From: Fragilaria crotonensis
Lineage: Eukaryota > Bacillariophyta > Fragilariophyceae > Fragilariales > Fragilariaceae
Assembly (NCBI GenBank): GCA_022925895.1
Contig: JAKSYS010000372.1
Location: 1 to 60,048 of the forward strand
DNA length: 60,048 nt
Direction: 5' to 3'
Of the stretch, positions 1 through 47,947 are shown piece after piece (position 1 is the first letter of the stretch; each line of letters starts with the position of its first letter). Under the pieces are notes generated by a model, which worked only from the letters and a program-made list of their open reading frames with translations, had not been told where the DNA came from and ran no database searches. The position numbers and the translations under genes were made by a program.

Positions 1-590
1 AATCGATCTTCAAATAGTCGTCACAATACAGTATCACCAGTACAGTACAATGGCGACTATTTGGTGACCGAAATTCGATCTTCAAATAGTCGTCACAGTA
101 CAGTATCACCAGTACAGTACAATGGCGACTATTTGGTGATCGAAATTCGATCTTCAAATAGTCGTCACAATACTGTATCACCAGTACAGTACAATGGCGA
201 CTATTTGGTGACGAAATTCGATCTTCAAATAGTCGTCACAGTCTGATATCACCAGTACAGTACAATGGCGACTGGTGATCGAAATTCGATCTTCAAATAG
301 TCGTCACAGCATGCAGTATCACCAGTACAGTACAATGGCGACTATTTGGTGACCGAAATTCAATCTTCAAATAGTCGTCACAGTACGAGTATCACCAGTA
401 CAGTACAATGGCGACTATTTGGTGATCGAAATTCGATCTTCAAATAGTCGTCACAGTACGAGTATCACCAGTACAGTACAATGGCGACTATTTGGTGACC
501 GAAATTCGATCTTCAAATAGTCGTCACAGTACGAGTATCACCAGTACAGTACAATGGCGACTATTTGGTGACCGAAATTCGATCTTCGAA
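1..590 (-). repeat. Tandem array A1, 72-bp units with palindromic core
   Basis: About eight head-to-tail units of 72 bp, cut off by the left window edge. Each unit contains GACTATTT and AAATAGTC as inverted arms around a GATCGAAATTCGATC centre, so every unit could form a hairpin or cruciform. The reverse complement of the unit core matches the 73-bp units at 2231-3330 and 7085-8060, so this array is inverted relative to those two. The inter-core spacer is also conserved between units, which argues against a CRISPR. Short open frames inside the array are translations of the repeat and are not genes. Confidence 0.93.
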
Positions 591-747
591 TTTCGATCTT
601 CGACGAGTGTTCTGAGTGATGTCGCCCCTGAGCACTGACGTACTTCTGACACGTGCGACGTGACAGAAGTATAAACTCGTATCACAATTTTCATCGTTCG
701 ATTGCCTTGCTCAACGCTGTTGCGAATGGTTATCAAACGGAAGAAAC

Positions 748-1124
748 AACTTGGAAACCATCATGAGTACGTCAAAACAGGTCACTGTTATCTGTGACTC
801 GGGGCACAGTAACAGCAGTTCCAACCTTGACGTTCGAAAAACCATGATGAGGAGTACGGTTGTGGAATGCAGATGTAACAACAGGAAACCATCATGAGTG
901 CGTCAAAACAGGTCACTGTTATCTGTGACTGGGGCACAGTAACAGCAGTTCCAACCTTGACGTTCGAAAAACCATGATGAGGAGTACGGTTGTGGAATGC
1001 AGATGTAACAACTTGGAAACCATCATGAGTACGTCAAAACAGGTCACTGTTATCTGTGACTCGGGGCACAGTAACAGCAGTTCCAACCTTGACGTTCGAA
1101 AAACCATGATGAGGAGTACGGTTG
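748..1124 (+). repeat. 131-bp direct repeat, three copies, at the start of the dioxygenase-like gene
   Basis: Three consecutive copies with the landmark GAAACCATCATGAGT at 754, 885 and 1016, giving a period of 131 bp. 131 is not a multiple of three, so the copies are read in different frames. Only the third copy is in frame with the downstream gene. Each copy carries candidate ATG codons, so the true translation start of the following gene is uncertain. This could be a duplicated 5' leader or promoter. Confidence 0.85.
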
Positions 1125-2230
1125 TACAGAATGATACCACAAGTGATGACATTGGCAAGACTGGAAAACGAGGTTTTCAACATGTATATAAATCAGGGAA
1201 AAAGTCTAGCATCACGACGCAGGAAGCATACAAGATGGCGATACAAAATGGCAAGCCAAAGAGTGTTTATGCAAAGAAGCGCAATTATTTGAAGAAGAAA
1301 AGGCTAGATAGTTTGATGCAAGTTTCATCGTCGCATGAGCATACACTGGGCAAAGCACTGTTGCAGAACAGTTGTAAACCTTTATTCTATAGTGGAGCCG
1401 ATATGGAAAACTCAACGAGACTTCGCAAACGCATAGGTGATGCGCACATGCTGTTTGCAATCAATGATCTTAAAGTCATTGACAATATGTCTGGTGCCCG
1501 TTTGATGTTACCGAATGGAGATAACGTCTTCACTTTGATCCCACGTCCGTATGTTGTCGAAAAACTTACAAGGGTTAACCAAACCATCGAGGCACTTTAT
1601 GCACTTGAGGATGCAGAATCCAAAGCAGAAGTGCGTGGAATTAAACGACTACCTGTTGCTGAAGATAATGGCAAATACACCACTGTTGGGTTAAAGCCAA
1701 ACCGTGGATCACCTGGCATAACCGAGTCTTGGCCAAAAACATTAAGTGAATGGAGCAAGACACAAATCCGTGACTTAATGAGGAGGTGTCATGAAGTGGC
1801 AAAGGGGTTCATTCCAGGGAATGATCTTCGAGGACTGCGAAGTGCCCAATGGTTTGCCGAATGGCCAAGTATGGTAGGTATGCAATCCGAACCAATCTGG
1901 GGTAGTCTTGCCTGTGGCAAGAACTATTGTTTGAATTCTCATACCGATGACGATTTTTTCTATTCCTTGACAACGATCGTTTCGCAACATGGATTGCAAC
2001 CAGGACGGTATGATAAATACCGATTGGATGCTGAAGTGACAAATTACTTTGCATTTGCTGAGCAAGGGATTGCTGCGGCACTGAGGCCGGGAGATATGTT
2101 ACTTTTCAATCCATTGTATCACCACTGTTTGACATCCCGCACATTGCATTGTCAAGAGAAAGATGTGTTTTGTGTGTCATTGTACCTTAAGACAGCAATT
2201 GTTGGAGGAAACAATAATAATGCGCTGTAA
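1025..2230 (+). CDS. 2OG-Fe(II) dioxygenase-like protein of the array-bounded element
   Basis: Predicted 401 aa. The C-terminal third shows a double-stranded beta-helix signature. His306-Thr-Asp308 (NSHTDDDFF) fits the HxD iron ligands. About 60 residues later, LRPGDMLLFNPLYHH followed by an SR pair supplies the distal His (366 or 367) and the Arg372 expected to bind 2-oxoglutarate. The N-terminal 150 residues are Lys/Ser-rich and resemble no domain I know. The family oxidises protein, small-molecule or nucleic-acid substrates; TET/JBP members act on DNA bases and are known from some fungal transposons. The substrate here is inference. Start: ATG at 1025 lies in the third 131-bp repeat copy; ATG at 1106 or an upstream start at 974 is also possible. 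The gene lies between inverted repeat arrays A1 and A2 and ends directly at A2. Confidence 0.55.
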   Translation: MSTSKQVTVICDSGHSNSSSNLDVRKTMMRSTVVQNDTTSDDIGKTGKRGFQHVYKSGKKSSITTQEAYKMAIQNGKPKSVYAKKRNYLKKKRLDSLMQVSSSHEHTLGKALLQNSCKPLFYSGADMENSTRLRKRIGDAHMLFAINDLKVIDNMSGARLMLPNGDNVFTLIPRPYVVEKLTRVNQTIEALYALEDAESKAEVRGIKRLPVAEDNGKYTTVGLKPNRGSPGITESWPKTLSEWSKTQIRDLMRRCHEVAKGFIPGNDLRGLRSAQWFAEWPSMVGMQSEPIWGSLACGKNYCLNSHTDDDFFYSLTTIVSQHGLQPGRYDKYRLDAEVTNYFAFAEQGIAAALRPGDMLLFNPLYHHCLTSRTLHCQEKDVFCVSLYLKTAIVGGNNNNAL

Positions 2231-3330
2231 AAATAGTCGTCTTCGTAATGTCATACTGTTACTTGTCCAATTGTGACTATTTGAAGATCGAAATTCGAAC
2301 ACCAAATAGTCGTCTTCGAACTGTCATACTGTTACTTGTCCAATTGTGACTATTTGAAGATCGAAATTCGAACACCAAATAGTCGTCTTCGTACTGTCAT
2401 ACTGTTACTTGTCCAATTGTGACTATTTGAAGATCGAAATTCGTACACCAAATAGTCGTCATCGTACTGTCATAGTGTTACTTGTCCAATTGTGACTATT
2501 TGAAGATCGAAATTCGTACACCAAATAGTCGTCATCGTACTGTCATAGTGTTACTTGTCCGTTTGTGACTATTTGAAGATCGAAATTCGTACACCAAATA
2601 GTCGTCTTCGTACTGTCATACTGTTACTTGTCCAATTGTGACTATTTGAAGATCGAAATTCGTACACCAAATAGTCGTCTTCGTACTGTCATACTGTTAC
2701 TTGTCCAATTGTGACTATTTGAAGATCAAATGCACCAAATAGTCGTCATCGTACTGTCATAGTGTTACTTGTCCGTTTGTGACTATTTGAAGATCGAAAT
2801 TCGTACACCAAATAGTCGTCATCGTACTGTCATAGTGTTACTTGTCCGTTTGTGACTATTTGAAGATCGAAATTCGTACACCAAATAGTCGTCATCGTAC
2901 TGTCATACTGTTACTTGTCCCATCGTGACTATTTGAAGATCGAAATTCGTACACCAAATAGTCGTCATCGTACTGTCATAGTGTTACTTGTCCGTTTGTG
3001 ACTATTTGAAGATCGAAATTCGTACACCAAATAGTCGTCATCGTACTGACATACTGTTACTTGTTCATTCGGGACTATTTGAAGATCGAAATTCGTACAC
3101 CAAATAGTCGTCATCGTACTGTCATAGTGTTACTTGTCCGTTTGTGACTATTTGAAGATCGAAATTCGTACACCAAATAGTCGTCATCGTACTGACATAC
3201 TGTTACTTGTTCATTCGGGACTATTTGAAGATCGAAATTCGTACACCAAATAGTGGTGACTATTTGAAGATCGAAGTTACGGGTTACTTCTTGTACGAAG
3301 GCTATTTGAAGATCAGAATCTGTACACAAT
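2231..3330 (+). repeat. Tandem array A2, 73-bp units
   Basis: About 15 units with a 73-bp period (AAATAGTCGTC landmarks at 2231, 2304, 2377 and so on). Each unit has GACTATTTGAAGATCGAAA and CACCAAATAGTC as imperfect inverted arms. Spacers are near-identical with only a few variant types, so the array probably grew by unequal exchange. It begins immediately after the stop of the dioxygenase-like gene and ends about 80 bp before the start of the long downstream gene, so it must hold the promoter or 5' leader of the latter. Confidence 0.93.
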
Positions 3331-3413
3331 TAGTGCGATCGACAGTGTGAACAGCTGCACCTAATTCTAACTGTTGAAGGTTGTCAACTCTTAAACAACT
3401 CAAGTCACTCAGT

Positions 3414-6400
3414 ATGCCCCCGAAGAAAAATAGGTTGCCGAAGGCAACCATGGATCATGACGATGATCCATTTGACGGATCTGAACCCCCAGTGATGAAG
3501 ACGATGGTTGAGATGATGAAATGGCACCACCGCATTCCACCTGATCAATTACCAACGTTCCTTCAGGAATATCGTATTCTTCACTTTGTTGGAAAAGAAG
3601 ATGAATACAGTGCAAGTGATACTGTTTATGAATTGTATCATATAATATTCGACGACCCTTCAGATCGGAAGTCACTGTCGTCTTGCCTTGGAAAGGGTGA
3701 GACACTTAGTATATGGGAAAAGGAGAAACCCACTGCTATTTGCGCTATCACGTTTGTGCAACGAGAGAACGCTGTTTTGGTTCTTTTTTTGGCAACTAAG
3801 GTTGATTATCAGGCCAACGGAATGGCAACTTTTTTGCTTTCAATTATGCATCAAGTTGTAAAGTGTAGGGTGGGTGTTGATCAGGTAAATGTTTATTTGA
3901 AAGCAAATCCGACCGCCAACAAAGTGGCATGGGATTATTATTTAAGACGCAACTTTGCCGAAATGGCTGAAGGTAATGAAGCATTTCCTAAAGTTTTGAG
4001 AGACTGTTTTGCCAATGAGGTTGGCGATAGTCCTCTCAAGGACTATCTCGGATTCAGCAACGATTTGAAGTGGTTGACGATTTCCCTTACACGTAAATAT
4101 TTTGCCTTGCCACCAAAATCCAGAAGACACAAAGTATTGAAAAGGTTGTTCAACAATCCCAACGACAACACCATTGATTGTCCATCCGTGTATGCTTTTT
4201 TCCCGGGAAACTTAACATACGAAGAGGCAGAATTTTGTACACCAAGTTATGATTGTTACTCGGGTGAATTTTGGGATGACAAGGCCTTCCATCCGAGTGC
4301 ACCGATGATGGAAAAATACCTATTCCAAGGTCCAAGTGCTCGTCTGACTTGGATAGATCGTTGCCTTACGCGCAAAGGTGACAGTCTTTCTCCAGACTTT
4401 GTGGACATTGCCCTAGGATGGTTGCAGCGGTATTGTAAAGCTGAAATTTGGTCGACCCTGACCTTTATTCCTTGTAAGATCATGACGGAGGTGTCAACAA
4501 TGGAGAGCCTTTTTACATCGTTTATTAAAGGACGGATCGTTCTATCTAAGGATCCCAATCTAGAAACCAAAACCAATCAAGAGAGAAGAGAGTTTGTAAA
4601 CCATATCTTTCATTACGAGATTGACCAAAAGAGGTTTATGGAGGCCTCAATTCTGGTGGTGGAGTTCATTTTACAACACAAGGAACTCCTCACGAAGCCA
4701 TTTATTGTCATTCCTGCACAAGATGATGAAGATTGTTCATGGACTGCTTTCGTGGCGGTGAATTTTGGAAAAACTGGGAACAATGAGAAGGATACAAAGT
4801 GTGGATATTTTTGGTTTGATCCAACTGGAAAACGTCGCCCTTCTAACCCACCGCCAATTTGCCGGTTCTTCCTCAAATTGGTGAACTTCATACTCGGTCC
4901 TGAGAATGATCCAAATGCGAGAGCACGAAAACCAAAAAAAGAAAAGGAAAGGGAAAGCTCACCGTGGAAAGACAAGGTTGTTGCACCATGGTTTTTCAAC
5001 ATGCATGCGTTTTACGTCGGTTTCACACGACAAGGCAAAAATTTTGGTTGTGTCGTCACTGACAAAAAGAATGAGACAAGTGACATAGAGGCGGGGCGCT
5101 TCCCGCCGTTGAGTTTACCGCCAGATTACATTCTCCTTAAGGAAAGGTCACGGGATATCGCGCAAAGTGGTTTAAGATCATTGATTTTCATCCGCGATTT
5201 TTGTGTCATGGTGCACGACGTCACATTTGACACAAATGGTAATGTGAAAGGTGACATCACTTTCGACCGCAATGACAATGTCGAGGGCATGGGCAGGCAG
5301 ATTCCCACATCAAATCGACCGTTTGCTCACTATTTACATGACGTGTACGTGAGCTTGTTTCAACTAATTGACAGAATAGCAAGCAGCAACTTTGGGTCGG
5401 TTCGAGAAGGAACTGATGAGTACCAAAAGTATCTTCGTCCCAGCAAGGGGTTGGAACGGTCGCTTTTGTTGGGTGCAAAACTAATGATGCCCGAAAAAGA
5501 AGATGCGTTTCCTGATTTAGCCAAGATTTCGGGGTGGAAACCATTCTCAAAACATGCAGTGTTGGTTGGCAGGGAAAGAGATTCGTGCGAGACGAATGAT
5601 GCTGATGTAGCGAAGCGGTTGCGAAAGACTTCGCGAAAGCCTCGACAAACAAAGAACAAAGGGAAGAAGGCTGGTGGTGAAGAGCAGTCGGGTGGTCTAG
5701 GCCAGCGAACGCAGGATAATCCATCGTTGACAAAGTCACCAGCAAGAAAGTCACCAGCAAGAAAGTCACCAGCAAGAAAGTCACCAGCAAGAAAGTCACC
5801 AGCAAGAAAGTCACCAGCAAGAAAGGCTGAAGCGACACCAGAAAGGATTCAAGACAACGAAAAGGTGCCTGATGGAGCACATACGACCACGGCGCGGTCG
5901 CAGGGAAGTGAATTCCTGCCATGGTCTATAGAGCATATTGCTCCATTTATTTCAATTTTCAAAAACGACTTCCAAAATGCTGCATCAGAAGATGAGAAGA
6001 AGAATCTGTGTTGGCAAATCATTGCTCTTTCGCACGGAAGTCTCCATTGCCATTTGTCGAAAATGCCTTGAAGTTTATACGCGATAATTTGAAAAGGAAA
6101 ATGAAAGTTTTCGATAATCGCGAAACATGGAAAAAGGATGTACTGTGTGGGAAGGGGCAACGCAAATGCATTCCGTACCTTGATCGCACATCGGACTTCA
6201 AGAAAATGCACTTGTCAGCAACTAGTCAGGCAGAAAAATATGAGGTGGTGCGTACCATTTACACTACTCTAAAAAGGAGGGATTTCGATTCCTCGAGATG
6301 ACAGAAAAAAAAATGTGGAAGGAAAAAACATACGATGATGGAATGGCCTATATTAGATCGCGAATGAAACGTGTGTGTAACGAAAAAGAAGGGGAGGGCA

Positions 6401-7056
6401 TAACGCCGTCAATAAATGATTTGGAGGCCGGACCAGGTCCATTTGAAAGTACATCACTACCGCCAAATGGAATTGTACTACGTAAACGCGATGAACCAAA
6501 GGGACATCCACCAAACATGGATTTCCGTCGGGTAATCCGAAGAGCTGCAGATGACACGTTTGAAAGTAAAACAGAAAGCGCTAAGGACAATATTGCAGGT
6601 GAAGTGCTAGAGGAAATGCGGAAAAAAGGTTATATCTTTGTCAATAAGGTGGAAGACGTTTGGAAAGGTATCAACACGAAAGAAGTAAGGACAAAGGTTC
6701 GGGATCGTCTAAGGAAATCAGTGTACTTTGGGAAACAAAGTACGGTGAGAGCAAAGAGGAAAGCTGGTGACGACAATGATGCTGGCATCATTGAATGCAA
6801 TAAGCCTTCAAAACAGCGGATGACAGGAAGTTTGAAAGCTGGTGACGAGGATGATGCTTGTATTGAATGCAATAAGCCTTCAAAGCACTCGTGTCGGAAA
6901 TGTAAGAAGCATGTATGTTCCATGTGTTGCTATGGAAAGAGAAAGCTCGAAAACACTTGGTGGTGCAACGTGTGTTTCAATAGACAAAGTGTTTGGAAGC
7001 AAACATTAATTCGGGACGGCAATTACAGTACTTCGGATGAAGAATGCAAGAAATGA
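3414..7056 (+). CDS. Multidomain mobile-element protein: GNAT, C48-like region, KSPAR repeats, DUF6824-like, zinc finger (two frameshifts)
   Basis: First ATG is at 3414. The first open frame runs to 6071, a second covers 6008-6301 and a third 6298-7056. Sequence flow suggests one protein interrupted by single-base deletions near 6059-6062 and in the A-run at 6271-6275. Order of parts: (1) about residues 100-200, a GNAT-like acetyltransferase with VDYQANGMA (motif A) and VNVYLKANPTANK plus YYLRRNF (motif B); (2) about residues 350-560, a region resembling Ulp1/C48 peptidases with FWFDP and RQGKNFGC, but with Ser before the Trp where His is expected, so probably inactive; (3) six KSPAR repeats, which suggest nucleic-acid or chromatin contact; (4) two DUF6824-like segments, DVLCGKG...FRFLE...YIRSR and HPPNMDFRR...KVRDRLRK; (5) a C-terminal Cys/His cluster ending in LIRDGNY. 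No DDE transposase triad was found. Function unknown. Confidence 0.55.
5733..5822 (+). repeat. 15-bp coding minisatellite, (KSPAR)6
   Basis: Six perfect in-frame copies of AAGTCACCAGCAAGA inside the long mobile-element gene. They encode a basic SPAR/SPAK-like tail reminiscent of histone H1 and other DNA-tethering tails. Copy number probably varies between element copies. Confidence 0.95.
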
Positions 7057-7084
7057 GTTCATCGCAGTCGTACTGGCTGTATGT

Positions 7085-8060
7085 AGTAGCATATTTGAAG
7101 GTCAAAATTCGTACACCAAATAGTCGTCTTCTTACTGTCATAGTGTTACTTGTCCATTCGTGACTATTTGAAGATCGAAATTCGTACACCAAATAGTCGT
7201 CTTCTTACTGACACACTGTTACTTGTCCATTCGAGACTATTTGAAGATCGAAATTCGTACACCAAATAGTCGTCTTCTTACTGTCATACTGTTACTTGTT
7301 CATTCGTGACTATTTGAAGATCGAAATTCGTACACCAAATAGTCGTCATCGTACTGACATACTGTTACTTGTCGATTCGGGACTATTTGAAGATCGAAAT
7401 TCGTACACCAAATAGTCGTCTTCTTACTGTCATACTGTTACTTGTTCATTCGTGACTATTTGAAGATCGAAATTCGTACACCAAATAGTCGTCTTCTTAC
7501 TGTCATACTGTTACTTGTTCATTCGTGACTATTTGAAGATCGAAATTCGTACACCAAATAGTCGTCATCGTACTGACATACTGTTACTTGTTCATTCGTG
7601 ACTATTTGAAGATCGAAATTCGTACACCAAATAGTCGTCATCTTACTGACATACTGTTACTTGTTCATTCGTGACTATTTGAAGATCGAAATTCGTACAC
7701 CAAATAGTCGTCTTCTTACTGACATACTGTTACTTGTTCATTCGTGACTATTTGAAGATCGAAATTCGTACACCAAATAGTCGTCTTCTTACTGACATAC
7801 TGTTACTTGTCCATTCGTGACTATTTGAAGATCGAATTTTGATCAGCAAATAGTCGTCAACGTACTGACATACTGTTACTTGTTCATTCGTGACTATTTG
7901 AAGATCGAAATTCTTACACCAAATAGTCGTCATCGTACTGACACACTGTTACTTGTCCATCGAGACTATTTGAAGATCGAAATTCGTACACCAAATAGTC
8001 GTCATCGTACTGACACACTGTTACTTGTCCATCGAGACTATTTGAAATCGAAATTCGTAC
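7085..8060 (+). repeat. Tandem array A3, 73-bp units
   Basis: About 13 units of the same family and orientation as A2 and inverted relative to A1. The array starts about 30 bp after the stop of the multidomain gene and degrades near 8050-8090. With A1 at the other side it gives the 1-8 kb segment inverted repeat-array ends, as expected for a mobile element with long, internally repetitive termini. Confidence 0.93.
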
Positions 8061-8827
8061 AGAAAAATAGTTCTGTTGGTGACGATTAAGAAGAAAAGTG
8101 TACCTTCAAGGAGATTTGCAACCCTGTTGTTATTGAGTACAAAGTACTGTCGTTGATGTACTCGAGTACAAAGTAGTGTAAGTTCGAGTGATTCAAAACA
8201 AGGGAAACACATGAATCACTGATAGAAGGAGATAAGTAGCAGTTATCTTCCTGGCATGACAAAGGGTTGACATGCGCGTTAGGAAAAGCGCCAACAGAAG
8301 TCAACAACAAAGATTCCGTGTTTTGTCAGCCATTCAAATTTCCGATGTCTTCAAAAATCTTCTACAGGAGGACTGACTGTCGTTTATTACTGTGACGTGG
8401 GTGCTGACGTCAAATTGGTGAAACCTAATCGGATCTATTCGCCCCCCGTCTACAAGCAGTATCATCTATCATCTCCTGATCTACACTGTACAGTACCGTG
8501 TACCGTGCGGGAGTGTGTATAGAATATATTTGAAATTGGTCTACTTGTACTGGACTGTACCATGCCCAAAAGTCTCGGAATGATCACAAATATCAAATAT
8601 CACATCTCAACGGAACAGGTCAGACACAGAGGAAGGCTTTTCTAGATTAGCAATGCTTCGGTTGACCTTGGAAGCATTGCGTCTGCCAGGCTAGAGGCTA
8701 CAGTAGTCAGAAAGGATCTGGACGTGCTATTCCGACAGCGTCACTCGTTCTATGAACACTTAAGCTTTTTTACGTTCGAGCTAACCAGCCCCATTCAGAA
8801 ACATGAATGGTTGTAAGCCGCCCAATC
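8061..8827. other. Non-coding spacer between repeat array and SBP gene
   Basis: No open frame with recognisable similarity. It holds the decayed last repeat unit and several GTAC words near 8480-8560. No terminal repeat of the neighbouring element could be recognised here, so the right end of the 1-8 kb element is placed only approximately, at about 8060-8090. Confidence 0.5.
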
Positions 8828-10888
8828 TTAGAATACCCCGGGATACTGCTGAGGTCCAGTTGGATTTCGGTTAAGGGAATTCATTCCTCCTTCCCTTGCC
8901 ATCAACGATTCAGTATTGCGCGCATAGATTTCCCCGTAGTTACCCAGCATTGATGGCATCGACGAACATGTTGCGCAGAACCGTCCCAAATAAATCGCAT
9001 TTCGGCATTGCATCCGCCGTGACTCGGGTAATATATTTTTCTTCGGCATAGATTGTTGCATGGACAACCCAACGAACAAAGTTGGTCCACTGAGGGTCGT
9101 CTTCTCTCGTCACCAGCGCAAGAGGTTCCTTCGAGTAGCGGTTGGCACCAAGTTCGTATCGAGAACTGTTGCCAGCGAGTGCAGCAACATCAGTGGAATC
9201 ACTGCCGATTGCGTTGCACTCTGTTCCCAGGGCGGCAAAAGCTTCAGAACTTGAGATCTTTGGAACAACAATGGACTCTGGAAACAGCTCACGAACTCGT
9301 GTTATTGAGGTGGTTCCATCTTGCATGCAAATCTTCAATCCTTTACAAGTTGACGAAGTCGAGTCCAACTTATCCGCGCACGCACCGTAAGGCGGAATGC
9401 CGGCGAAGGACAAGCCATCATAAAAACTGACTGGCGCAAAGGAGAATCCTTCGCCAGTTGTTGGTTCGGCACGATCGCGTTGTTGCGTAGCAGTGGTGGT
9501 ACGTGACAAACAGTCTACCAGACCTGAGGCGAGCGCTGTGAATCGAGCTGTTGCTGGAAGGACGGTATAGACTACGTGCGTGTCAACGCCATTAAAAATA
9601 GCAGCCGCTAGCGCACGACAATAGTCGACATCAAAGCCGCTCCAGGAGCGAGTCGACTTGTCGAAATCTCCAAAACTGCCAGTAATTGCGATTCCGCATT
9701 TCAAGTGACCCCGCTGTCGAATGGCTTCAAGCGTGCCACCCGGCACTGGACCTTTACCAACTGTCAGGACAGACCCGAATGGAAACGAGTACATAAGCCC
9801 AGAAGTGCCATTATTGATAGTATTCAAGGTCGATCGAGGCACAATCTTTTGCAAATGACGCTCGTACATTTCACCGTAGTTTCCAACCTGGGCTATTGCA
9901 TGTTGGTACATTCTGTATAGGCATCGCCAAAGTTTGAAGTTTCAGGAAACTCATTTGCGTTAGCCTGTTCAATGTCACGTTCCTCTGCACTGAAAAGAGA
10001 CTCCACAACCCAATACACAAAGTCGCTCCAGAACGCGTCGCCCTCGCGAGTCACGACAGCCAACGGTTCTTTCGAAAACTGCGTAGTTCCGACAACATAG
10101 TCATTTTCAGTGTATCCCTTTAGTTCTAGAACAGTTGCGGATATCCCTGTTTGTTCTTCGGTGATGACATTGCAGCTTCCTTCTATAAAGTTTGTGTACA
10201 GTGCATTTGCTGATTCCACCGGTAACACATTTGCACTCGGGGCCCAGTCACCAACGATTTCAACATGAGTTGTCCCCTGACTAACACATATGAGCACGGT
10301 AGAACACTCTCCTGTAAAATTACGTTGTTCAACGCAGTCCAAGTAGGGTTGACGGCCCCCAAAGCCGACACCGTTGTACAGGTATGGCATTGTGAATTCG
10401 AATCCTGCACCGACCGATGGTTCATGAACATCGCGCTCCATGGTAATTGTCGAGACGCGTGCCATGACGTCGATTGATTTGTTTTGCAAAAACGTCCAAC
10501 GATCACCCGAGGATAAGAGTGGGGTGAATTCGACTTTTCCATCAGATGTTCCAAACATGGCAGCTGCGACCGCGCGGCATAGGTCTGCATCGAAACCAAT
10601 CTGCGTACCGTCGTCGGCTTTGACAGCAAATCCATTTTGTCCATCAGGAATACCGCATCTGAGGAAACCTCGAGCGACAATTTCGTCCAGAGTTTCCGAC
10701 GAGGCGGTGGAATTAGGCGCCGTGTTGATCGGGACGGGAGTGGGTGCCGACTGCGCACCGACCTTGCTTTGACTGTCAGCCATGTCTCGGACTTCACTCA
10801 GGGAAACCGACCCGAGGATTACACCTGATAGGGCAAGAGCGATCCCAATCAGGGTCAACGCGGTGAGCACACCACCTCCTTCACACAT
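8828..10888 (-). pseudogene. Two-domain bacterial-type amino-acid-binding protein (SBP family 3), two frameshifts
   Basis: Start ATG at 10888. An N-terminal hydrophobic segment (LTALTLIGIALALSGVILG) would anchor or export the protein. Two consecutive family-3 solute-binding domains follow, each starting like bacterial general amino-acid binding proteins (FLRCGI.. and HLKCGI..), with GFDADLCRAVAAAMF and GFDVDYCRALAAAIF, and each ending with (V/L)GNYGE(M/I)Y(E/A)R. In bacteria such proteins feed ABC amino-acid importers; in a eukaryote the role is unknown. The frame breaks immediately before GNYGE in both domains (about 9893-9911 and 8940-8950), in opposite directions. The second shift leads to the remaining 40 codons and a stop at 8828. 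Probably acquired from bacteria and then duplicated. Calling it a pseudogene is tentative because consensus errors are frequent in this window. Confidence 0.72.
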
Positions 10889-11987: not shown

Positions 11988-14900
11988 CTACTTATTGTCA
12001 TTGTTACCAACTACATTAGGACAAGTTCTTCGGTTGTGCCCTCTCTTTCCACAAACAGAACATTTGACAGGAGAATCCTCAGCTACAATGAACTTACTGC
12101 GTTTGCGAATTCGTTTTGTTTTTGGTCGTCCAGATTGCCGTTTTGGCATGTCGGGTTCCTTAGTTTCACCATCATATACAGTTGTTTCCAAGCACACAGG
12201 GAAAACGTTCTTCTTGAAAGTGTTGTGCACGAACTCAAATGTGTAGAACGGATGGACTAAACTTCGCAGAACATAATTGAATTCTTTTTCCTCCCATTTC
12301 CTGAACACTGCACATGCATGCCGACATGGGTAAAGGAAGTCCTGCCATACTCCACAGCTGCACCACTCCAAATGGCTTGACCACAAGGACACGGTCTGGA
12401 TCACCGTAGGATCGTGCCATCCGTTGCACATTGTCATCGCCATTTTCATCCACAATTGATATTGGTTCCACCACCTTGAAGTCACCACACCCCACCTCAA
12501 TCTCATCGACAGTCATAGACGCAGCGGCATCCCACCTACGCTTCAGAATCTGGGCAACTCTAGGCACCACCTCCGATCCATCTCGCGAAGCATACTTCCT
12601 TCGGCAAGTACACACTCTCGTCGTCATTATGTCAAGAATTTTGTTCACAGCCTCCAGCCATCCAAGATTCCTTGCTTCTGATAACATACTGTTTGCCGAC
12701 TCGGAGGTGTTCGAAGTTACAATTCCATACCGTGGAGGCAACTGAGCAGGTGACGGTGACGGTGAATCTGAATACCACTGAGTACTCCGCCACAGAACAC
12801 CCGACGCGGTTATGCTTTCCAAATATGTGGCGGCCTCTGGCTTCACCTTTCGAATCTCATCTAGCAACAGGCTCGCATTTCGTGTCGAGAATGACTTAGC
12901 TATGGAACAGACAAACTTTGCACACTGCTTTCCATACTTCTGCGTCACATTTGCCTGGATGTGTCTAGCACAGCTCATCTCGTACTTATTTGGGAACACC
13001 GCTTTCAATGCCTCCTTCAGACCTTTGTCTCTGTCTGAAATGAAAAGAAACGGTGGCCTAACAACACCATCCGTGTCACTGTCGCCGTATCCCTGATCAT
13101 CAATTATTGGACATGCCTTCTTCAACAATTCAAGCATCTTCTTCCACGTCGCTCCATCCTCGTTCCCGGCGCATATCATAAACCCAATGGGGAAGATGTC
13201 ATTGCACCCACTGAGAACCGATGCCATGTACAGAGTTCCCTTGTGTTCGCTCCTCAGATGTGTAGCATCCAAGGACACCACCGGCCGAACAAACTTGAGC
13301 ACCCCGTTCATGATACCGGGAAATACGTGAAGATCGACAAGTCTCTTTTCCTCATCCCTAGTATACCCAATCACAGAACCTGGATTACTTTTGTTCAAGC
13401 CCTCCAAAAAATGGAATGATCATTTGGAAGTTTTTCACGACAGCATTTCTAACGCTACTAGTTTGAAAGCGCAGCGCCCTGTACGCTGTCATGTATGAAA
13501 TGACAACTCCCGACTTCGTTGCAGCTGTCTTCACGACATCTGCCGGTGTTGGAGCTCCCTTCTTTGTGCGAACAATCTGATCGATAACATCATCAAGCTC
13601 TGCGTTTCGCCTCTTCTTCCACTTCCTCCCATCAGCTGCCTGTTTAGGTCGGCACACCTCACTGTGCACACCTGTAATCTTTCGGACGCAGAACATCAGG
13701 TCGGATCGCCGCCTGGATATCAATACACGAAACGGACAGTCGACGTGCTCCATACATTGATATTGTTTGAAACGGTCGCTAATGGAACGTTGCACTCTTA
13801 AACGATTTCCCGATCTGACCTCATACTTTTCGATGAACGGTTCTACCTCCTCCAAGGTTGAGAAGCAGTCAATGTTCGCATCACCAAGGATATCATACAA
13901 TACATAATCCTGTGACTTTGTAGCTACCGAACTTCCCTGCTTTCCTTCGACTTGTTCCTCTGCTGTGAGCGTGGAAGTGCCGACGCTGTGGTCGTGCTTC
14001 TCCTTGCCATCGGACTGCACACTGGACTCGTCACTGCTGTCGCAGGTGACATACTCGTCATCATCATCGTCTACTAACTCAACCTTGTCGTCGTCGTCGT
14101 CGTCATCGTCGTCGTTGTTGTGATTCTCAGTCCTCTTCTCTATCCTCGCCTGCGCTCTGTCTGTTGTTTTTGCCAACAAGAGCTTGCCCACCCTGGCAGG
14201 ACGATCTGCCTCAGCCTGCAGCGTCGTCAACACCAAGACAGCAGCGCTCACATCACTGTCGGAACTGTGCCTTCGTTCCTTCTTCGGTTCTTTATGAACT
14301 ACCTCCAGCCCGAAACTCTCTAAGATGCTACTTCCGCGCAACCGCGGAAAGCAATCGCGCACAACCTGACTTGTTGTTCCCAAGTCAGCACCATCCCCCC
14401 CAAATACTGTCACCAGCCTACTTCGCAGTTTGGTGACGTCTTGTTGCCGAAACGTTTCTCTCGTGACATCAATGCCCTCGATGAGGTGTAATACAACACC
14501 CACTGCAAACAAGCCGCAGTCAAACCCATTTTTCTGGATGGGACAATCGCAATAATGCACCCTGCCAATCAGCGCCGCGTCACTTTCCCTTAGGTGTGCA
14601 TGTTTCTTCTCGTGTAGAATGAAATTGTGAATGAATAAATTCACAACCTTTACAATGCGTAGGACATCGGGGTGAACCTGACGTGTGCGGCGTACCAGGG
14701 AATCATAAAACGTCATGTCATTTACGAACTCCGGCGTCGAGATCGAACAGTCCAGGCATAGCACAAAAAAATGATTTCCCAACACAATCGGGATAAGCAG
14801 CCTGTTGAGAGTACGCGCCGATCCAAAACAAGCTTTCATTTGTTGCCGAATACGAGCGACGTTCCGACTACGAGCAAGTTTACGTCCTTTCGTCGTCTCG

Positions 14901-15147
14901 TCTTCCACGAGTTCTGGATTATCATTGATCAAGTCATTACATGAATTGAAGTACTCATAGGTGCCAAGGCTTCCAATGTGAGATGCATTCGTGGAAATTA
15001 CCTCCTGGGGGGGACAGATCGCTGCAATATACAGTCCAACAGCAACGTGCTTAACCAAGCATTTGTTGACAGCGCAGAAGTGTCCTCACTACTGGGTGAG
15101 ATCCATCCAGAAAAGCGAGGATCTCCCGGAAAGTGTGCCTCCTTCAT
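11988..15147 (-). CDS. MULE protein: Ulp1/C48 protease fused to MuDR-type transposase (frameshifted)
   Basis: Read leftwards from ATG at 15147. Order: N-terminal segment with TNAWLSTLL; a C48 peptidase domain with His in GNHFFVLCLD, Asp in FYDSL, and Gln/Cys in QKNGFDCGLF; an acidic poly-Asp linker; a WRKY/MuDR-like zinc finger (CMEHVDCPF...GVHSEVC); the MULE transposase core with VSLDATHLR (first Asp) and FISDRDKGLKEAL (second Asp) and HIQAN; a SWIM finger (CSCGVWQDFLYPCRH); and a terminal CCHC knuckle (CSVCGKRGHNRRTC). The frame breaks in a C7 run (15007-15013), in a T6 run near 13404, and near 12380. All read as single-base indels. Fusion of Ulp1 with a transposase is known from KAONASHI-type plant MULEs, where it is not strictly needed for transposition. 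Stop at 11988. Confidence 0.85.
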
Positions 15148-19105: not shown

Positions 19106-20910
19106 ATGGGTGTGACAGCGTCGAGGCTCGTTGCTATCAACATGCTGAACGGCCTGTATGGTCGTGGTATTGATGTTCCGCTCACAGAGCACCATTACTT
19201 TGATGAAAATGACGAGATAGACGACGAAAAATTAGAGGAATATCTGATGCAAGAAGGTGACGAAGACGAACAGAAGGGAAAGGTGCTCCTTGCTTTGGTC
19301 AACATGGTTGTACAAGCAAGGAAACGGAAGAGACAAGTGTCACTGGAGTCCAAGCAACGAGAAAATCGTCCAAGGAAGAAAACCAGGATTGCGCGTCCGA
19401 GGTGGTATACTGACCCCATCACACGAGTGCGGCGCAAGAAGACGCCAAAAATGAGCGCATGGTGGGAGGATTACGTTGATGCTCCGCAGCCAAACAATGC
19501 ACATTGGTCCAAGGAATTCAGGCAAAACTTCCGCTTGCCCTATGCGTCATATTTGATGATTCTAGATATGATATCGTCCGAGAAGAGTGAAGGATTGTTT
19601 GACAGGTGGAAGGCACACGACAACAGCTGCTACGACCGACAAGAGAACAAAAAGAACAAAAAGTTTCACCAATCGAACTCCTTCTTTTAGGTTCCCTTCG
19701 TTATCTTGGAAGAGGTTGGACCTTCGACGATATGCGTGATGTAACTTACATCAGTCGTGATGTGCATCGAAAGTTTTTCCACCAATTCGTGAAGTTTGGT
19801 GCAACAGTACTGTATCCAATGTATGTATCGGTGCCCCGCACACAAGAGGACTTGAGAGATTGTGAGAGAGAATACAGAGTTGCAGGTTTTCCAGGCTGCA
19901 TTGGAAGCACCGACGCGACCCATATTCCTCTTGAGAAAGTTTGCTTTTCATTGCGCCAAGCTCATCTTGGGTTCAAATCAAAAAACACGATGCGAACGTA
20001 TAATCTCACATGCAATCATCGGCGCCAAATCCTGCATACGACATCAGGCCACCCAGGTAGATGGAATGACAAGACATTGATTCGTTTTGACTCATTTATG
20101 TCTGACCTTCGCGATGGAGCCTTTGACAACAAAATGGATTTTGAGTTGACGACGCGACAAGGCATTTCAAGTGATGATGTGGGCGAGGATCGGATACTCA
20201 AACTTAGAGGGGCATATGTCATCGTAGATAACGGCTACCTTGAGTGGCCTACAACAGTGCCACCCATGAAACATACGTGCAACCGATCGGAGTTGAGGTT
20301 TTCACAGTGGCTTGAGTCCCTTCGAAAGGATGTCGAGTGCACCTTCGGTATCTTGAAGGGACGTTGGCGGATTCTTAAGACAGGAATTCGATTGCACAAC
20401 ACGGAAGCCAGTGACAATATTTGGCTGACGTGTTGTGCTCTCCACAATATGTTATTGGATGTCGATGGCCTCAACAAAGCCTGGAAAAATGGTGTTCGTT
20501 CCCATTGGGAGATGGAAAGTGGCGAGTTCCGAGATGAAGAGATTCCTTTCGCAGTTCGAAGGTTGATTGATCCGAATGGCACCGACGAATTCCGTCTGCG
20601 ACATTACGATGCTTCGCGATTCGGATTTCAACGCTCGCCAAGACCTGATAGTGATAATGAGGAAGACAATGAAACCGATGACAATTGTGTCGGCAATCGC
20701 AATCGCAATCGCAATCGCAATTGGAACGAAAATCAAATCAGATCGTTACGAATCCAATCAGGTACACCAGTGAACAAACTGAACTTCTTTCAGTTTCGTG
20801 CGCTGCTTGTCGAAAACTTCAACGTGCAATTCCATAAGAAAAGTCTTCAGTGGCCAAAAAGACTTGCTCGTGCCTCACCACGACACGTTCCTGTCATGAT
20901 TGCAGCATGA
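19106..20910 (+). CDS. PIF/Harbinger-type DDE transposase (one frameshift)
   Basis: Start ATG at 19106 opens an N-terminal frame to 19690 (acidic, then basic, RPRKKTRIARPRW) that overlaps the main frame from 19606. The two join by a single-base shift within the A-rich stretch 19640-19680. The main frame shows the typical LLLGSLRYLGRGWTFDD segment, first catalytic Asp in GSTDATHI, second in VDNGYLEWPT, and Glu in VECTFGILKGRWRIL. The enzyme cuts and pastes its own element at 3-bp TWA targets. The C-terminus contains an RN-rich stretch made by an AATCGC microsatellite at 20694-20723. The companion gene of the element lies convergently at 21197-22862. Confidence 0.88.
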
Positions 20911-36818: not shown

Positions 36819-39704
36819 TCAGGCGTTGGATTTCGAGTACAGAAGTCCTTGATCTTCTGTTATACTTGTGGCGATGAAGTTGTGGGTACGACCTTGCTGC
36901 CTCATTCTCTGCTGACTCTCAAAAGATGATGGTAAGTACAAATATATGCGCGTGCTCGAAGCAAACTTTCCCATCCTTTCTTTGGTCAACTCCTTGATTG
37001 AACACGTTGAATCTCTCACAAGTTGTTTGAAATTCTCTCGTCCCTCTTTTGAGATACAGGAACCCGTCGGTAGAAAGCCTTTGCGTGACCCCAGCAAAAT
37101 TCAATGCCTTCCCTGCTAATTCGGCATGGAACTTTGGTGTTAGAAGTACCGTGATGCCCAGCTGAGATCCAAGGTACTGAAGTGCCGTTTCCTCATCCTT
37201 GAAATCAGCACACTCTGCGATGAGATGGCGTAGGGAATACCGTAAGTCAATCTTCCCTGAAATTGTGTCTTTCTTTCCGTCGACAGTGTATTTATCTAAC
37301 TCACTTGGATCAATCAGTCCTCTTTCCCACAGAACTTGTAGCATGCCTTTAGATTTTCCTTCCCATCCAGATAGGATTTTGTCGACTTCTTTGTGAGTTT
37401 CGATTGAATTGTTTCTTGCCAATTCCTGAAGTTCGGCTTTAGTGTACCCGCGTTTTTGTTGGAGCGTCACACCCTTTTCGTTGAGCTCTTCAAGAAGGGT
37501 CTTCTTTGTTTTTCAATTGGCTTGCTTCTTTTCCCATTATTCGATCATGACGTTGTAAGTCACGTTGCTCTGGTGTCAAATACCATGGGCCACAGTCGTC
37601 AGTATTGAATACCATTGACTGTGTGTCTCCGATGCCCAGGGTTGGTGAGTGTGTGCCCAGATAACCCTCTTGTGACATTATGACTGTGTCTCTCATCTGC
37701 TGTTTTGATCCTCCAAAGTTCTTTTGCATGTTGATCGCACTGAGTGCACCATCACGTTTGCGAGCGTGTCCCTGAGAATGATCGAACAAAAATACAAAAT
37801 CGAAGCTTGGATATAGGATTCGTAGGCAATCAACCACATCCTCAAGCTGAAGACTCATGTGGTATGAATTCCAATAACCCTGATTATTGATTCCGATGAA
37901 CAAGTATTTTACGAAGGGGGATTCCAACAAAATCGGCTTCCTCGTTGTTCCCAAGATTTCCATCGCAGCTGTTGTATCGAGGTAATTTCCACCGCCGAGA
38001 GCTGCTGTTTGCCTTGCCATATTCACTCTTTGTAACTCATCCTCTGTCATCTGCCTGCCAAAGCCGAATTCGCGTGACACGAACGCAGAAAGCATATACC
38101 CATCGCCCTCCGACTTGGGCAGAAGTGGCACTTGTCCTTTGGCCCAACCCATTGTTTGGAGGACAGTAGATACTGCGCGAAGACAGACTCATCTTGACCA
38201 ATAATCATCAAGGGCCTGACTGATGATGACACTCGTATGCTTGTTTTGCTTCAACATCTCGCGCTGCCTCTTCTCCCTTTTGATTCTTGATATGCAATTC
38301 TTCCAATAGTCAACGTGAAACTCAACCCGAGTCTCATCAGATATAATATCATAGTAATGATGTCCGAAATCTGTGTCTAAGGTCTTGATCGTAGCAGCTT
38401 CACTGAGTGGAAGCTGAATCCAACGCCGACAACGTGGCTCAAGCACGGTAAGGTAGTTCTTGCAGAATGCATTTCGATGTGCGACAACATCTTCACGTTC
38501 ATGGCCATCGACGTAGAAGCTCTTCCTTCTCGTATCATACTTGAATCCGAGTAATCGCATCCAGCGCCATGCTGTTGTGAAGCTCATGTTTTTAAGTCTA
38601 TGTGCGCGAAGGAATAGCGCAATATCATCCTCATCTTGATCGACATCGACAGGATTGCTAGTAGGATTAATGGCTGTAGTACTTGTACTCAATGTTGACG
38701 TTTCTGCAGTATCTTCGTCTACTACCGATTCACGTTTCCACAACGCAGCCAGCCTTGGGATTACAGACGAATGAACGAATTGATAGACTGCTTCAATTGA
38801 AAGATGTGACAAGTTCTCGACGCCAAATGCAACAATCTGCTCCTTTGCGCATGGAAACACTTCGAGAACTCGAGGAAGAGGTCGTTTCCACACTGAACAG
38901 ACAAGTTTGGGTTTGGGAAGCATTCAAAATTACGGAACACAATGTTCCAATTTGCGATGGTTTTATAGAAGGTTGCTTGCGTCATACCAACAGTGTTCAA
39001 TACCTTACAAGATTCAGTGCAACAGTCTTGCCACGTCCATTCATTCATTTTGCAAGAGCCAATCGGTACGCATAACAAAGAAACGTCGCCCTTTGCCTGA
39101 CAGCGCATATCTCAGCTTTGGTACACACGTTGTCGATATCTCTACCTTGCACAACATTCCTCCAATTATTTTCTTCCTCATGAACGCTTTGAAGCAGTAC
39201 AATCCTTCTCTGAAGTGCTTCCATTGGAGTTTCAGAATCGAAATCAGTATCATTCCCATCCTCGCAATTCGTTGTCCCATGTTTCTTTGGTGGTTTGAAC
39301 ACTCGGTATGCCTCTGGGCTACATGGCCAGTAACTTGAGCTAGAAGCATCAGCAGCAATCATTACAGCGGCCGCACCAGTATCTCCTATCCTTGCTCGTT
39401 TGCTCGGTGATTGCTCAACAATGTCTCCGATCCTTCCTCCCGTAGCCTCCGTGTTGACAGGTGTAGTTATCATTGTGTCGAGAGCGGGTCTTGATCTTGT
39501 GCTTGGAATGACTAGCACATTTGCGGCTGCTTCCATTACTTTTTCGTTCCATGCACTGTTAAGTGGACATGGGTACCGTATCTGCCTTGATTTCTCTGTG
39601 AAGTAGTAATAGAATGTGTTCTTGTATGTGACTCTGAACACTCCTGTTGTGTTTGATCCATCAAATCGGTGCATCAATTCTCCGAAAGAAGCCGACTTGG
39701 ACAT
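36819..39704 (-). pseudogene. Decayed Tc1/mariner-superfamily DDE transposase
   Basis: Leftward reading in at least four frames. An N-terminal domain (39704-39045; RFDGSNTTGVFRV...) of unknown kind comes first. A helix-turn-helix region follows (38923-38189) with TTAWRWMRLLGFKYDTRRKS and YVDGHEREDVVAHRN, typical of the large IS630/Tc1-like transposases common in fungi and stramenopiles. Then comes the DDE part: first Asp in IIGQDESVF (a third frame, 38232-38047), then VPLLPKSEGDGYMLSAFVS (38152 onwards), second Asp in FVFLFDHSQGHARKRDGAL, and the C-terminal LLTPKFHAEL (37470-36919). Frame breaks lie near 38930, 38200, 38140 and 37500. Given their number this copy is probably dead, although consensus errors may add to the count. 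Terminal repeats were not found. Confidence 0.8.
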
Positions 39705-40410
39705 CCCTGTATTGAACCTTCTTACATCAATGACGCCAAGGGACGCATTGACATCAAATCTCCTAAAGCTTCAGCCCAAGTTGATGCAGGAAGCCAGCAA
39801 TTTGACAATCTCGGACCATACGTGATGTCTGTTCGAAGTAGCATGACGGCATCAGTCAAAATAGCATATTTACCTTTGTCAACCATTGTATCTATAGATT
39901 TATCACCAACAGTAGGTTCACTGAGTTACATAGGAAGGTGACTGCAGGAGGTAAATCTATAGATTAGAATGGAAATGTTGCAAACGACGGCTTGAAAATC
40001 TCATTGTGGAAGCCTTGCTTCCAACACGACAAAGTCCCGCCCTCGTGACGTCATATTGGCAGTGAAATCGGTCTAGCGTAGAATTAATACTGGGACGTGC
40101 GCCCGGATTTTAGAACAGAAAACCAGCTGTACCTGGTACACAATCTCTACCTACTACCGGTAGAGAGTCTACTAACGGTAGAGTGTCAAAAACATTGATA
40201 GGGTGCATGTGTCAGAAGTCAGAACGAGATCATATAACGGACGACGACAGGCATAGTAGAGGAATCTTGAGACTGCAGACTGGGTACTCGAGTACTGGGC
40301 AGAACAATATTGTTGAGTTAGTACATACATATCTGGATATAAACATTGGAGTCGCATGATCCATGATTCGACCACATCAATCGCCAGTCGTCTTGACACA
40401 AAAACCAACG
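39705..40410. other. Intergenic spacer
   Basis: No gene recognised. Contains two copies of AATCTATAGATT-type palindromes (about 39890 and 39955) and several TACCGGTAGAG/CTACTACC words near 40150. It includes the promoter of the next gene. Confidence 0.4.
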
Positions 40411-41373
40411 ATGGCCATCGCTTCACGCATCATCCCTCTTTACCTTCCTCTCCTCGTCCTCTTTCACCCCGTTCTAGGACGCAATCCGTCATATCTTGCA
40501 TCTCCGTTAGGTCGCGCGTCATCATCTTTATTTGCTCACAGCCGTCACTGTAGGACTCACCAACAGCTCGCATGCCACGGGTTTCGTCGCCTACCGTTGG
40601 TCCATACCAATTCCCTCCTCCGCCGGGCCGTTCGCTCTTCATCGTCACAGGCGTACCGCCTCCCCTCGGGCGCTGTCACGTCATCCACTCGACGATACTT
40701 GTTGGACTTTTTCAATCCTCTCGAACCTCTCGAATTGGCATGGGAATTGTATTGCAATCGCTATGATATTTTGGACGAACTGGTCGTTAAAGTCGTGGCA
40801 GTCACAAAACGCCATTCCATCAAGGCGCTCGCTGTAGTAGGTGGTTTACTTGCGGTTGGGGAAGTCCTGGCACGGGTGGGCATTTTGGGAAAACAGGGGT
40901 TGAAGGCCTATTTGTGGCAATCGGAACGATTCAAGGATGGCACGGAAGAACGATTCTTTCAAAAGACGTCTGCGTGGATGGTCGATAACGGTCTCAACGC
41001 ACTGCAACACTTTCATGGGCTCGGATCCAAGAGTAAATTTGCCATTTCAATCAGTGCCGGTGCCTTGTTTGGACGAGCCATGATTGCATCCACTGTCATT
41101 TGTGTCAAGACTATATTGGTGTCTTTCTTTGTTCTAGAAACGTTGTCGTTTTTGGGTGTCATTGGTGATGCCGGAGAAAGTATACTGGATTGGGTCGAAG
41201 ATGAATATGAGCGACACGCGTCGTGGACCATGTATTTGGCTAGTTGGCACAAGAAGGCGCGAAGGAAGATGTCGTTGGCATGGTTAGAAGAACTGTACGA
41301 AGCTGCAGTGGACGAAGAAAAGATCGCCAGCTTTGGGTTTAGTGTGGGAACTGTCTTCACTCTTTTGACGTAA
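40411..41373 (+). CDS. Predicted secreted or organelle-targeted membrane protein, unknown function
   Basis: 320 aa from ATG at 40411. A strong N-terminal signal sequence (MAIASRIIPLYLPLLVLFHP) is followed by a Ser/Arg-rich stretch, which could be a bipartite plastid presequence, but no ASAF-type motif is obvious. The mature part has two hydrophobic segments (about residues 130-160, KALAVVGGLLAVGEVLARVG, and 215-260) separated by amphipathic helices, and ends FGFSVGTVFTLLT. No family recognised. The same frame stays open for another 107 codons after the TAA at 41371 (to 41694), so an alternative spliced or extended C-terminus is possible. Convergent with the glycosyltransferase gene. Confidence 0.6.
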   Translation: MAIASRIIPLYLPLLVLFHPVLGRNPSYLASPLGRASSSLFAHSRHCRTHQQLACHGFRRLPLVHTNSLLRRAVRSSSSQAYRLPSGAVTSSTRRYLLDFFNPLEPLELAWELYCNRYDILDELVVKVVAVTKRHSIKALAVVGGLLAVGEVLARVGILGKQGLKAYLWQSERFKDGTEERFFQKTSAWMVDNGLNALQHFHGLGSKSKFAISISAGALFGRAMIASTVICVKTILVSFFVLETLSFLGVIGDAGESILDWVEDEYERHASWTMYLASWHKKARRKMSLAWLEELYEAAVDEEKIASFGFSVGTVFTLLT

Positions 41374-41984
41374 CAGCTGATGATTGGTATAGCACAGGCC
41401 GTCAAAGCCGATGACATTCGAATGTTTCCTCCCGCGGGAAACAGTCCCACCCTGCTGGAAATCCGAACTATCGTCCTGCAGTTTCCCCTTCCACAGTTCC
41501 ACCTGCTGAAGGATTTGGAATGTACGTTGATGAGGATTGTTTCTCTGTGTGCACGCATACCCGCATTAGCTCGGAGCTTTCTAATGTGCTGTTTACCACA
41601 CTGCGGGGATCATATCGTGACTATTGATCCAACGCAGATTCTCCGTCGCTACCGTTTGTCCCAATTGTCATCAAGGGACACTTACTCGACGTGAGGAACA
41701 TGTTACAGTCTTTACATTGGCTACTATTGTTGGATGTACATGGTGGCGTGGCCATTGTGTTGGTTGCCACTCGTCTTGCCCGATCTCAAATCGACCGAAC
41801 ACTATTGTCGCCATTGCAATTACAGAATCGCCAATAAAAAATATCCATGGAGCAAACGGCGGGCATGACCATCAATCACATCCAACAGCTCGAGTCGTAG
41901 GATGACGAACCAAAGAACGTTGGTTTCTTTTCTCAAAACAGCCGAGTATGTACTGTAACGATTTCGATGCCCAAAGCTTAACTT

Positions 41985-46338: not shown

Positions 46339-46393
46339 GGTGTTGTGAAGTTTTATTTCTAAGTTTTATCATGGCATTGTGTTGAGTTTGGTG

Positions 46394-46520
46394 GTACTGG
46401 AGTACTGTACTATTCGCTATCATACCAGCTACGGTGCTACCGTACCTGGTACTTGTAGTGTCGTCACCTGTAGTACCGAGTACTGAAGTACTGCAGTACC
46501 GTTTGTACGACCTGAAGTAC
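46394..46520. repeat. GTAC-dense promoter spacer
   Basis: The tetranucleotide GTAC occurs 11 times in these 127 bp, where about 0.5 would be expected by chance. They come mostly as overlapping words such as GAGTACTGAAGTACTGCAGT. The cluster lies between the divergent starts of the CHR (46338) and rhomboid (46730) genes. Confidence 0.8.
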
Positions 46521-46729
46521 GATGACGTCCGTCCGTTGTCAGTTGGATCATGATGGAATTCCGCTTGTTCTTTTTCTTTCCTCGGCATCACTTGGCACTT
46601 CGTCGTCTCCCCGACATCTTTCCAAATCCCATATTTTCATTGCGTCGTTCCATAAATTGACTGCTCCTTCACCTTGAAATTTGCTTCTCTTCATCGCCGA
46701 CCGATCGGAAAAAGTACAAGTTACAAACC

Positions 46730-47911: not shown

Positions 47912-47947
47912 GGGGTAGCGACAGTGAATTTGTGAGAGACTATAGAG

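Follow-up and report, generated by a model that had tools for sequence, protein, structure and literature searches.

A probable MULE-superfamily transposon with three dyad-bearing tandem arrays and a conserved second gene module, and the apparent loss of about 6 bp at its insertion sites

We analysed 60,048 nucleotides of a Fragilaria crotonensis contig (JAKSYS010000372.1; G000:C305:1-60048; hereafter the window), whose base 1 is the contig start and lies inside a tandem array. An initial annotation of this DNA had proposed a new mobile element at 1-8090 with inverted array ends and an accessory enzyme cargo. From sequence identity and structure, window positions 1-8436 are very probably the right-hand two-thirds of a copy, about 12 kb in full, of a cut-and-paste DNA transposon of the Mutator-like element (MULE) superfamily. 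The right end of the element lies at 8436 rather than 8090 and, because the contig begins within array A1, the left end lies outside the window. The part absent from the window was reconstructed from copies elsewhere in this 62.1-Mb genome.

Tandem Repeats Finder detected three arrays of 73-bp units in this segment: A1 (3-591, minus strand; 8.2 copies, truncated at the contig start), A2 (2231-3254, plus strand; 14.1 copies) and A3 (7092-8061, plus strand; 13.3 copies). The inversion of A1 relative to A2 and A3, already described in the initial annotation, is directly visible in the window, and in other copies the A1 unit is ~73-80% identical, on the opposite strand, to arrays of the A2/A3 type. 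Each 73-bp unit contains a dyad, AAATAGTC ... GACTATTT, whose half-sites are spaced 43-44 bp apart in A3. Exact half-sites (AAATAGTC/GACTATTT) number 8/7 in A1, 14/14 in A2 and 13/13 in A3, against 1/0 in the remaining 51.5 kb of the window. The arrays are internal and intergenic and are not the ends of the element, as had been supposed; these ends are terminal inverted repeats (TIRs) that lie outside the arrays, the right one at 8402-8436 (plus strand) consisting of 32 bp that match the left end of other copies perfectly, plus a terminal TCT. A further tandem repeat (745-1125, plus strand; 2.9 copies) lies on the 5' side of the gene between A1 and A2, and its period of 131 bp is not a multiple of three.

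The gene between A1 and A2 (974-2230, plus strand) would encode 418 aa, and its product fits a putative Fe(II)/2-oxoglutarate (2OG) dioxygenase-like protein: HxD...H is the motif pattern of Fe(II)/2OG enzymes, and H323, D325, H384 and K396 were invariant in three aligned sequences. Between A2 and A3, a large gene (3414-6071, plus strand, in a frame open from 3381; 885 aa from the ATG) carries weak GNAT similarity near its N-terminus and a basic low-complexity repeat near its C-terminus. It is followed by an intermediate open frame (6044-6298, plus strand; no Pfam family above cut-off), possibly a continuation of the large gene through a decayed or spliced join in the window copy, and by a 252-aa frame (6298-7056, plus strand) that is either the C-terminal part of the large gene or a separate gene. 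DUF6824, chiefly a diatom domain, was found in this last frame by Pfam (PF20710; 32.6 bits vs a cut-off of 27), and a FYVE-type zinc finger scored 22 bits there, below the cut-off of 27.2.

The initial annotation had read 3414-7056 as a single protein with GNAT, C48-like, DUF6824-like and zinc-finger parts. DUF6824 stands and GNAT is hinted at by weak matches from two libraries to the same N-terminal stretch (PDB NAA60, E 0.043; RimI, E 0.015, 15.4 bits vs a cut-off of 86.4), while Pfam scans of the large protein gave no C48 domain, and the stop at 6071 and the frames behind it interrupt the proposed single frame in the window copy. Otherwise Pfam gave the large window protein only below-cut-off matches, to a low-complexity stretch. 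A search for relatives of the large and 2OG-like proteins on viral contigs gave no match to the peptide patterns used.

Matching pieces were found across the genome at least 69 times for the large gene and at least 113 times for the 2OG-like gene, and a 251-bp stretch of A3 had at least 222 matches. We considered and rejected the idea that the arrays are an ordinary genome-wide satellite present without the genes, as all 21 contigs among the A3-stretch matches listed hold an element gene or gene fragment. One array (C17:74679) lies more than 9 kb from the nearest known element-gene piece. Annotation covered 24 loci, and arrays of the 73-bp unit were present at 20. At twelve of these 20, the 2OG-like gene and the large gene are both present, always in the order A1, 2OG-like gene, A2, large gene, DUF6824 frame, A3, and the 2OG-like gene reads toward A1 in 11 of the 12, being flipped in one (C93) as it is in the window; the remaining eight are short, deleted or truncated at contig ends.

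Similarity among copies ends abruptly ~358-386 bp to the right of A3 and extends leftward well past A1. There, in copy C183 (L050), we found a MULE transposase (PF21056, 6.6e-14; PF10551, 4.8e-10; both above cut-off), and a diverged family carries one as well (PF21056, 8.8e-13; PF10551, 2.4e-11). The left end of C183 is an inverted repeat of its right end over 32 bp without mismatch (35 bp including the terminal triplets), and the complete copy spans 39037-51292 (12,256 bp). A full copy thus reads TIR, MULE transposase, A1, 2OG-like gene (reversed), A2, GNAT-like/DUF6824 gene or genes, A3, TIR. The initial annotation had seen no recognisable DDE transposase because the contig edge cuts the element.

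A genome-wide search for the TIR returned 168 matches (≤2 mismatches; ~100 listed) and none for a reversed-pattern control. Of the elements obtained by pairing listed ends, 12 measured 11.9-13.0 kb, which are the complete copies with defined ends that the initial annotation had proposed to look for; five measured 3.9-9.6 kb and eight 2.5-3.0 kb, while others were as short as 171 and 168 bp. Every two-ended copy examined (15 of 15 longer, 10 of 10 shorter) combines a GGGTCCGATTAGG end with an [AG]GATCCGATTAGG end (GGA- or AGATCCGATTAGG). The terminal triplets of these 25 copies are constantly unlike, GGG at one end against GGA or AGA at the opposite one, which may mean that the two ends play unequal roles. 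The element is mobile, as had been suspected: numerous copies, sharply bounded by identical ends, occupy different sites, some of which have empty counterparts. The MULE family is real and probably recently active.

Over at least 1.6 kb, the right flanks of the window copy and C93 are 98.5% identical, and both copies have the flipped 2OG order; they are therefore probably one insertion seen twice. C93 holds the transposase and the left end. An on/off inversion of the 2OG-like gene was considered and rejected, as the readable joints of flipped copies differ in sequence from those of usual copies. Since these joints carry different sequence, the flipped order (window, C93, C130, C63, C418) looks like that of a derived subfamily. 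At C451 (L018 / L068), one copy sits inside a small element with the terminal repeats of a diverged family.

Target-site duplications (TSDs) were looked for in the flanks of all 25 two-ended copies but C48, whose contig begins 107 bases before the element. No exact duplication was found at any length from 4 to 12 bases (0 of 24), and two of 24 copies matched at 2 and at 3 bases. Mean flank identity was 0.21-0.30, compared with 0.24-0.27 for mismatched pairings, and is at chance level; with the ends shifted by up to 3 bases, a chance-like 5-mer appeared in two of 15 copies (C150, C418). The target duplications that the initial annotation had suggested seeking were thus absent from these copies.

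Empty sites were sought by joining the two flanks of 12 longer copies (the 15 less C451, C93 and C48) and of ten short ones, and 40 of 160 and 40 of 357 candidates, respectively, were scored. A match crossed the joint for nine of the 22 sites, and at seven of these nine about 6 bp had been lost, four times exactly 6 bp with perfect 15-base flanks. The clean losses were ATAGGG at C416, ACTATG at C268, CATACT at C143 and CATGTC at C150, the empty counterpart of the last lying in the window itself (58409-58594, minus strand), where the 6 bp are retained. At C40 the loss was 6 bp net, next to a T-run. Among the empty-site matches of short copies, 35 of 41 exceeded the joined flanks by exactly 6 bp (the rest differed by 3, 4, 5, 7, 7 and 9 bp). 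Filled and empty counterparts were near-identical over 220-310 bp in three pairs (C304/C46, C150/C305, C418/C602), which we infer most likely represent the two haplotypes of a diploid assembly. For the diverged-family copy split by the C451 insertion, 18 matches were found, none spanning the joint. A limited literature search, which is weak evidence, yielded no recognisable precedent for a constant target loss; for diatoms, a MULE that lacks a TSD has been published (PMC6446971, in the part available to us).

Related elements with diverged proteins show the same arrangement. The large proteins of C388 and C860 are 38% and 35% identical to that of the window, the 2OG-like protein of C388 is 58% identical, and the transposase of C860 is 69% identical to that of C183. 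Both keep the order MULE transposase, array, 2OG-like gene (reversed), array, large gene, DUF6824, array, and their arrays occupy the same three positions with a 52-bp unit and a different dyad, GGCGGCATT ... AATGCCGCC. In C388, exact half-sites (GGCGGCATT/AATGCCGCC) number 11/9, 3/5 and 2/5 in the three arrays, with none in the 8.6 kb outside them and no half-site of the 73-bp type. The 131-bp repeat has counterparts of 135 bp (L033:5879-6283) and 138 bp (L035:7935-8278) at the same place in diverged families, and a repeat of 131-138 bp lies on the 5' side of the 2OG-like gene in both array families and also in C592 and C783. At L026 and L027 (G000:C361 and C114), inverted pairs of 73-bp arrays adjoin two units of the 52-bp type, next to a diverged-type left end, and arrays seem to have been exchanged between families. 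The start of G000:C592 (L035:1-2659) has a telomere-like (TAACCCC)n run and then a 53-bp satellite repeated 42 times, with a diverged pair of 2OG-like and large genes nearby. A CxC...CxH pattern, the form of a SWIM zinc finger motif, occurs at L034:1109-2335, where Pfam gave no match for a SWIM zinc finger.

Clustering of 93 match rows gave 59 MULE loci. A 2OG-like locus lies within 7 kb of 32 of these, on the opposite strand in 28 cases and on the same strand in four (C130, C418, C63 and C93); of the 25 large-gene loci, 19 lie within 4 kb of a 2OG-like locus, and 17 of these pairs are divergent. The ratio of nonsynonymous to synonymous substitution rates (dN/dS) of the 2OG-like gene was 0.20 for the window vs C105 and 0.18-0.19 between families, the latter being rough because dS exceeds 1.7; it was 0.135 for the MULE transposase and 0.38-0.67 for the large gene. 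These ratios argue that the 2OG-like gene is under purifying selection, and the faster evolution of the large protein is as expected if it follows changing DNA sites, or else reflects relaxed constraint. The initial annotation was right that array orientation matters, but to call these genes accessory cargo undersold them: their place is kept across diverged families, and the sequence comparisons indicate that the 2OG-like and large genes are a conserved second module of the lineage, not casual cargo.

Other accounts of the element's parts were also weighed. The initial annotation had allowed that the large protein is an unrecognised transposase and the A1-A3 unit the element, and its gene does sit between A2 and A3 in annotated copies; the large protein of C860 also has an OrfB_IS605 match (E 0.0014; 19.3 bits, below the cut-off of 30.5), confined to its basic C-terminal tail and lacking from the window protein. 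We regard this account as very improbable, given that the sharp, mutually inverted ends lie outside the arrays, that a MULE transposase is encoded in the same element, and that elements of 168 bp to 3.0 kb bearing the same ends cannot hold the large gene and DUF6824 part (3.6 kb in the window) and so must move by protein supplied in trans. It is also quite unlikely that the 2OG-like and large genes are host passengers, picked up in the manner of Pack-MULEs and without a role for the element. Gene capture is known for MULEs (PMC6446971, in the part available to us), no 2OG-like locus lies within 7 kb at 27 of 59 MULE loci, and none lies within 4 kb at six of 25 large-gene loci, some of which are at contig ends or in deleted copies; yet a family whose large protein is just 35-38% identical has the same gene order and array placement, and the 2OG-like gene is selectively constrained. 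Some weight, though a minor share, goes to the arrays being sub-terminal or internal binding sites of the transposase itself rather than of a separate anti-silencing protein. Long TIRs or sub-terminal repeats serve in this way in other transposons, and the mutual inversion of A1 and A3 on the two sides would suit such a role, whereas A2 lies deep inside the element, the 168 and 171 bp copies moved without any array, and the transposase is 69% identical between two families with entirely different array units.

The target loss, for its part, could be an artefact of misplaced ends, or the empty sites could be excision footprints or unrelated paralogues. The triplets that differ between the ends leave up to 3 bp per end arguable, and most counterparts of C268 (28 matches) and C416 (10 matches), where the target is a multi-copy repeat, are other repeat copies and not alleles. 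The triplets are constant, however, while the lost hexamers vary by site, and at both C268 and C416 the hexamer was present in all three repeat copies read and is therefore ancestral, not an excision footprint; we consider the artefact improbable. Several further observations weigh against a fixed 6-bp loss. At C418 (counterpart C602) there are two substitutions at the joint and the net change is zero, and at C335 the joined flanks exceed all nine counterparts by 7-11 bp, the extra joint bases resembling the element end; neither site fits. C304 (counterpart C46) lost TACATG at the joint and has a second 2-bp gap four bases off, C437b lost 7 bp at the joint and 6 net over the match, and the other 13 of the 22 sites had no counterpart among the best-scored candidates. 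MULEs, moreover, usually leave a TSD of 8-11 bp, although not universally (PMC6446971, in the part available to us).

The MULE transposase encoded left of A1, an RNase H-fold DDE enzyme, very probably acts on the 35-bp TIRs and inserts the element. This would proceed by strand transfer at target positions staggered opposite to the usual sense, and the bases between the staggered joints would become flaps whose removal would cost the target about 6 bp. Such a reversed stagger with flap removal would be the most likely chemistry; a blunt cut plus trimming is possible but less natural, because the number of bases lost is near-constant. DDE transposons are identified by the duplication they leave, and a constant 6-bp deletion would require a different target-joining geometry. 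An element that deletes 6 bp would also escape TSD-based annotation.

In the second module, one or more of the proteins may bind the array dyads and shield the element's promoters from silencing, with the 2OG-like enzyme acting on a methyl mark. By analogy, then, we favour an anti-silencing module like that of the VANDAL MULEs, its proteins recognising the arrays, because the arrays are intergenic and have kept their position and dyad form while their sequence was replaced, beside an oxygenase-like gene; we hold this to be plausible, with a chance somewhat short of even. Several results tell against it. Single-strand folding of the array unit gave nothing unusual (z -0.37), and many copies of the element genes carry stops or frameshifts. 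The 2OG dioxygenase-like call of the initial annotation kept its HxD...H pattern, but the window protein matched no Pfam family at E ≤ 1 and no domain library scanned (Pfam, PDB profile and others) confirmed the call; a PDB profile search of the family gave no oxygenase, its best match, a DNA polymerase delta subunit aligned to the N-terminal part (E 0.008), being taken as chance. The enzymatic activities of the 2OG-like and GNAT-like parts are putative, and single-sequence structure models had mean predicted local distance difference test (pLDDT) scores of 30.0 and 37.1, too poor to be searched with, and were set aside.

Taken together, we tentatively propose a MULE lineage that combines a fixed 6-bp loss by reverse stagger with an enzymatic anti-silencing module, addressed by three internal dyad arrays that change sequence completely from family to family but keep their position and dyad design; that both parts hold is doubtful, although possible. 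If true, an oxygenase- and acetyltransferase-like module with fast-changing arrays would be a second, enzymatic answer to the problem that VANDAL elements solve by VANC.

Other features lie in the window to the right of the element. At 8940-10888 (minus strand) there are two adjacent frames, one of which (9893-10888) has a match to bacterial solute-binding family 3 (1.5e-8), an unusual find in a contig that looks eukaryotic. A frame at 13385-15058 (minus strand) carries a Ulp1-type Peptidase_C48 domain (9e-10) and, below cut-off, a weak match to a MuDR DNA-binding domain (7.2e-4); with the adjoining frame 12235-13407 (minus strand) it is perhaps a relic of a different type of MULE, one that had a SUMO-protease domain. 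At 19606-20910 (plus strand) lies a DDE_Tnp_4 transposase frame of the PIF/Harbinger type (6.8e-20).

Foldback elements are minisatellite-bearing and in this resemble the MULE-like element described here. With the MULE superfamily at large the element shares the transposase domain and TIRs, but not the usual TSD of 8-11 bp. Closest by description are the MULE-Diatoms, group 37 of a 2019 MULE survey (PMC6446971), listed as 'No TSD and not indicated' with one ORF, a SWIM finger and TIRs of 123-124 bp: both have a MULE transposase and no TSD, and the host is likely of the same kind, whereas the element here has several genes, 35-bp TIRs, arrays and a loss of about 6 bp. The part of that survey available to us makes no mention, for diatom MULEs, of extra genes, arrays or a 6-bp loss. 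Rehavkus, a MULE-related element in the same source, likewise has a minisatellite within a MULE-like element, but with a 9-bp TSD, a PHD finger in its transposase and a single ORF. Several lineages of fungal DNA transposons carry TET/JBP dioxygenases, which probably aid their escape from silencing (Kojima 2025, PMC12730594); there too a dioxygenase-type gene accompanies the transposase, although the lineages named in the available part of that paper exclude MULE/MuDR, and Pfam gave no Tet_JBP match in the window 2OG-like protein (E ≤ 1) or in its C388 and C592 relatives (E ≤ 5). The VANDAL21/Hiun element of Arabidopsis differs from the present one in that TIRs are present here, and the likeness of the extra proteins here to its VANC protein would be one of function. 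In the part of the report available to us (PMC5735166), VANC binds short motifs, often in non-coding tandem repeats, and methylation is lost there; both elements are thus MULEs with extra genes and with non-coding arrays of short motifs that turn over between families.

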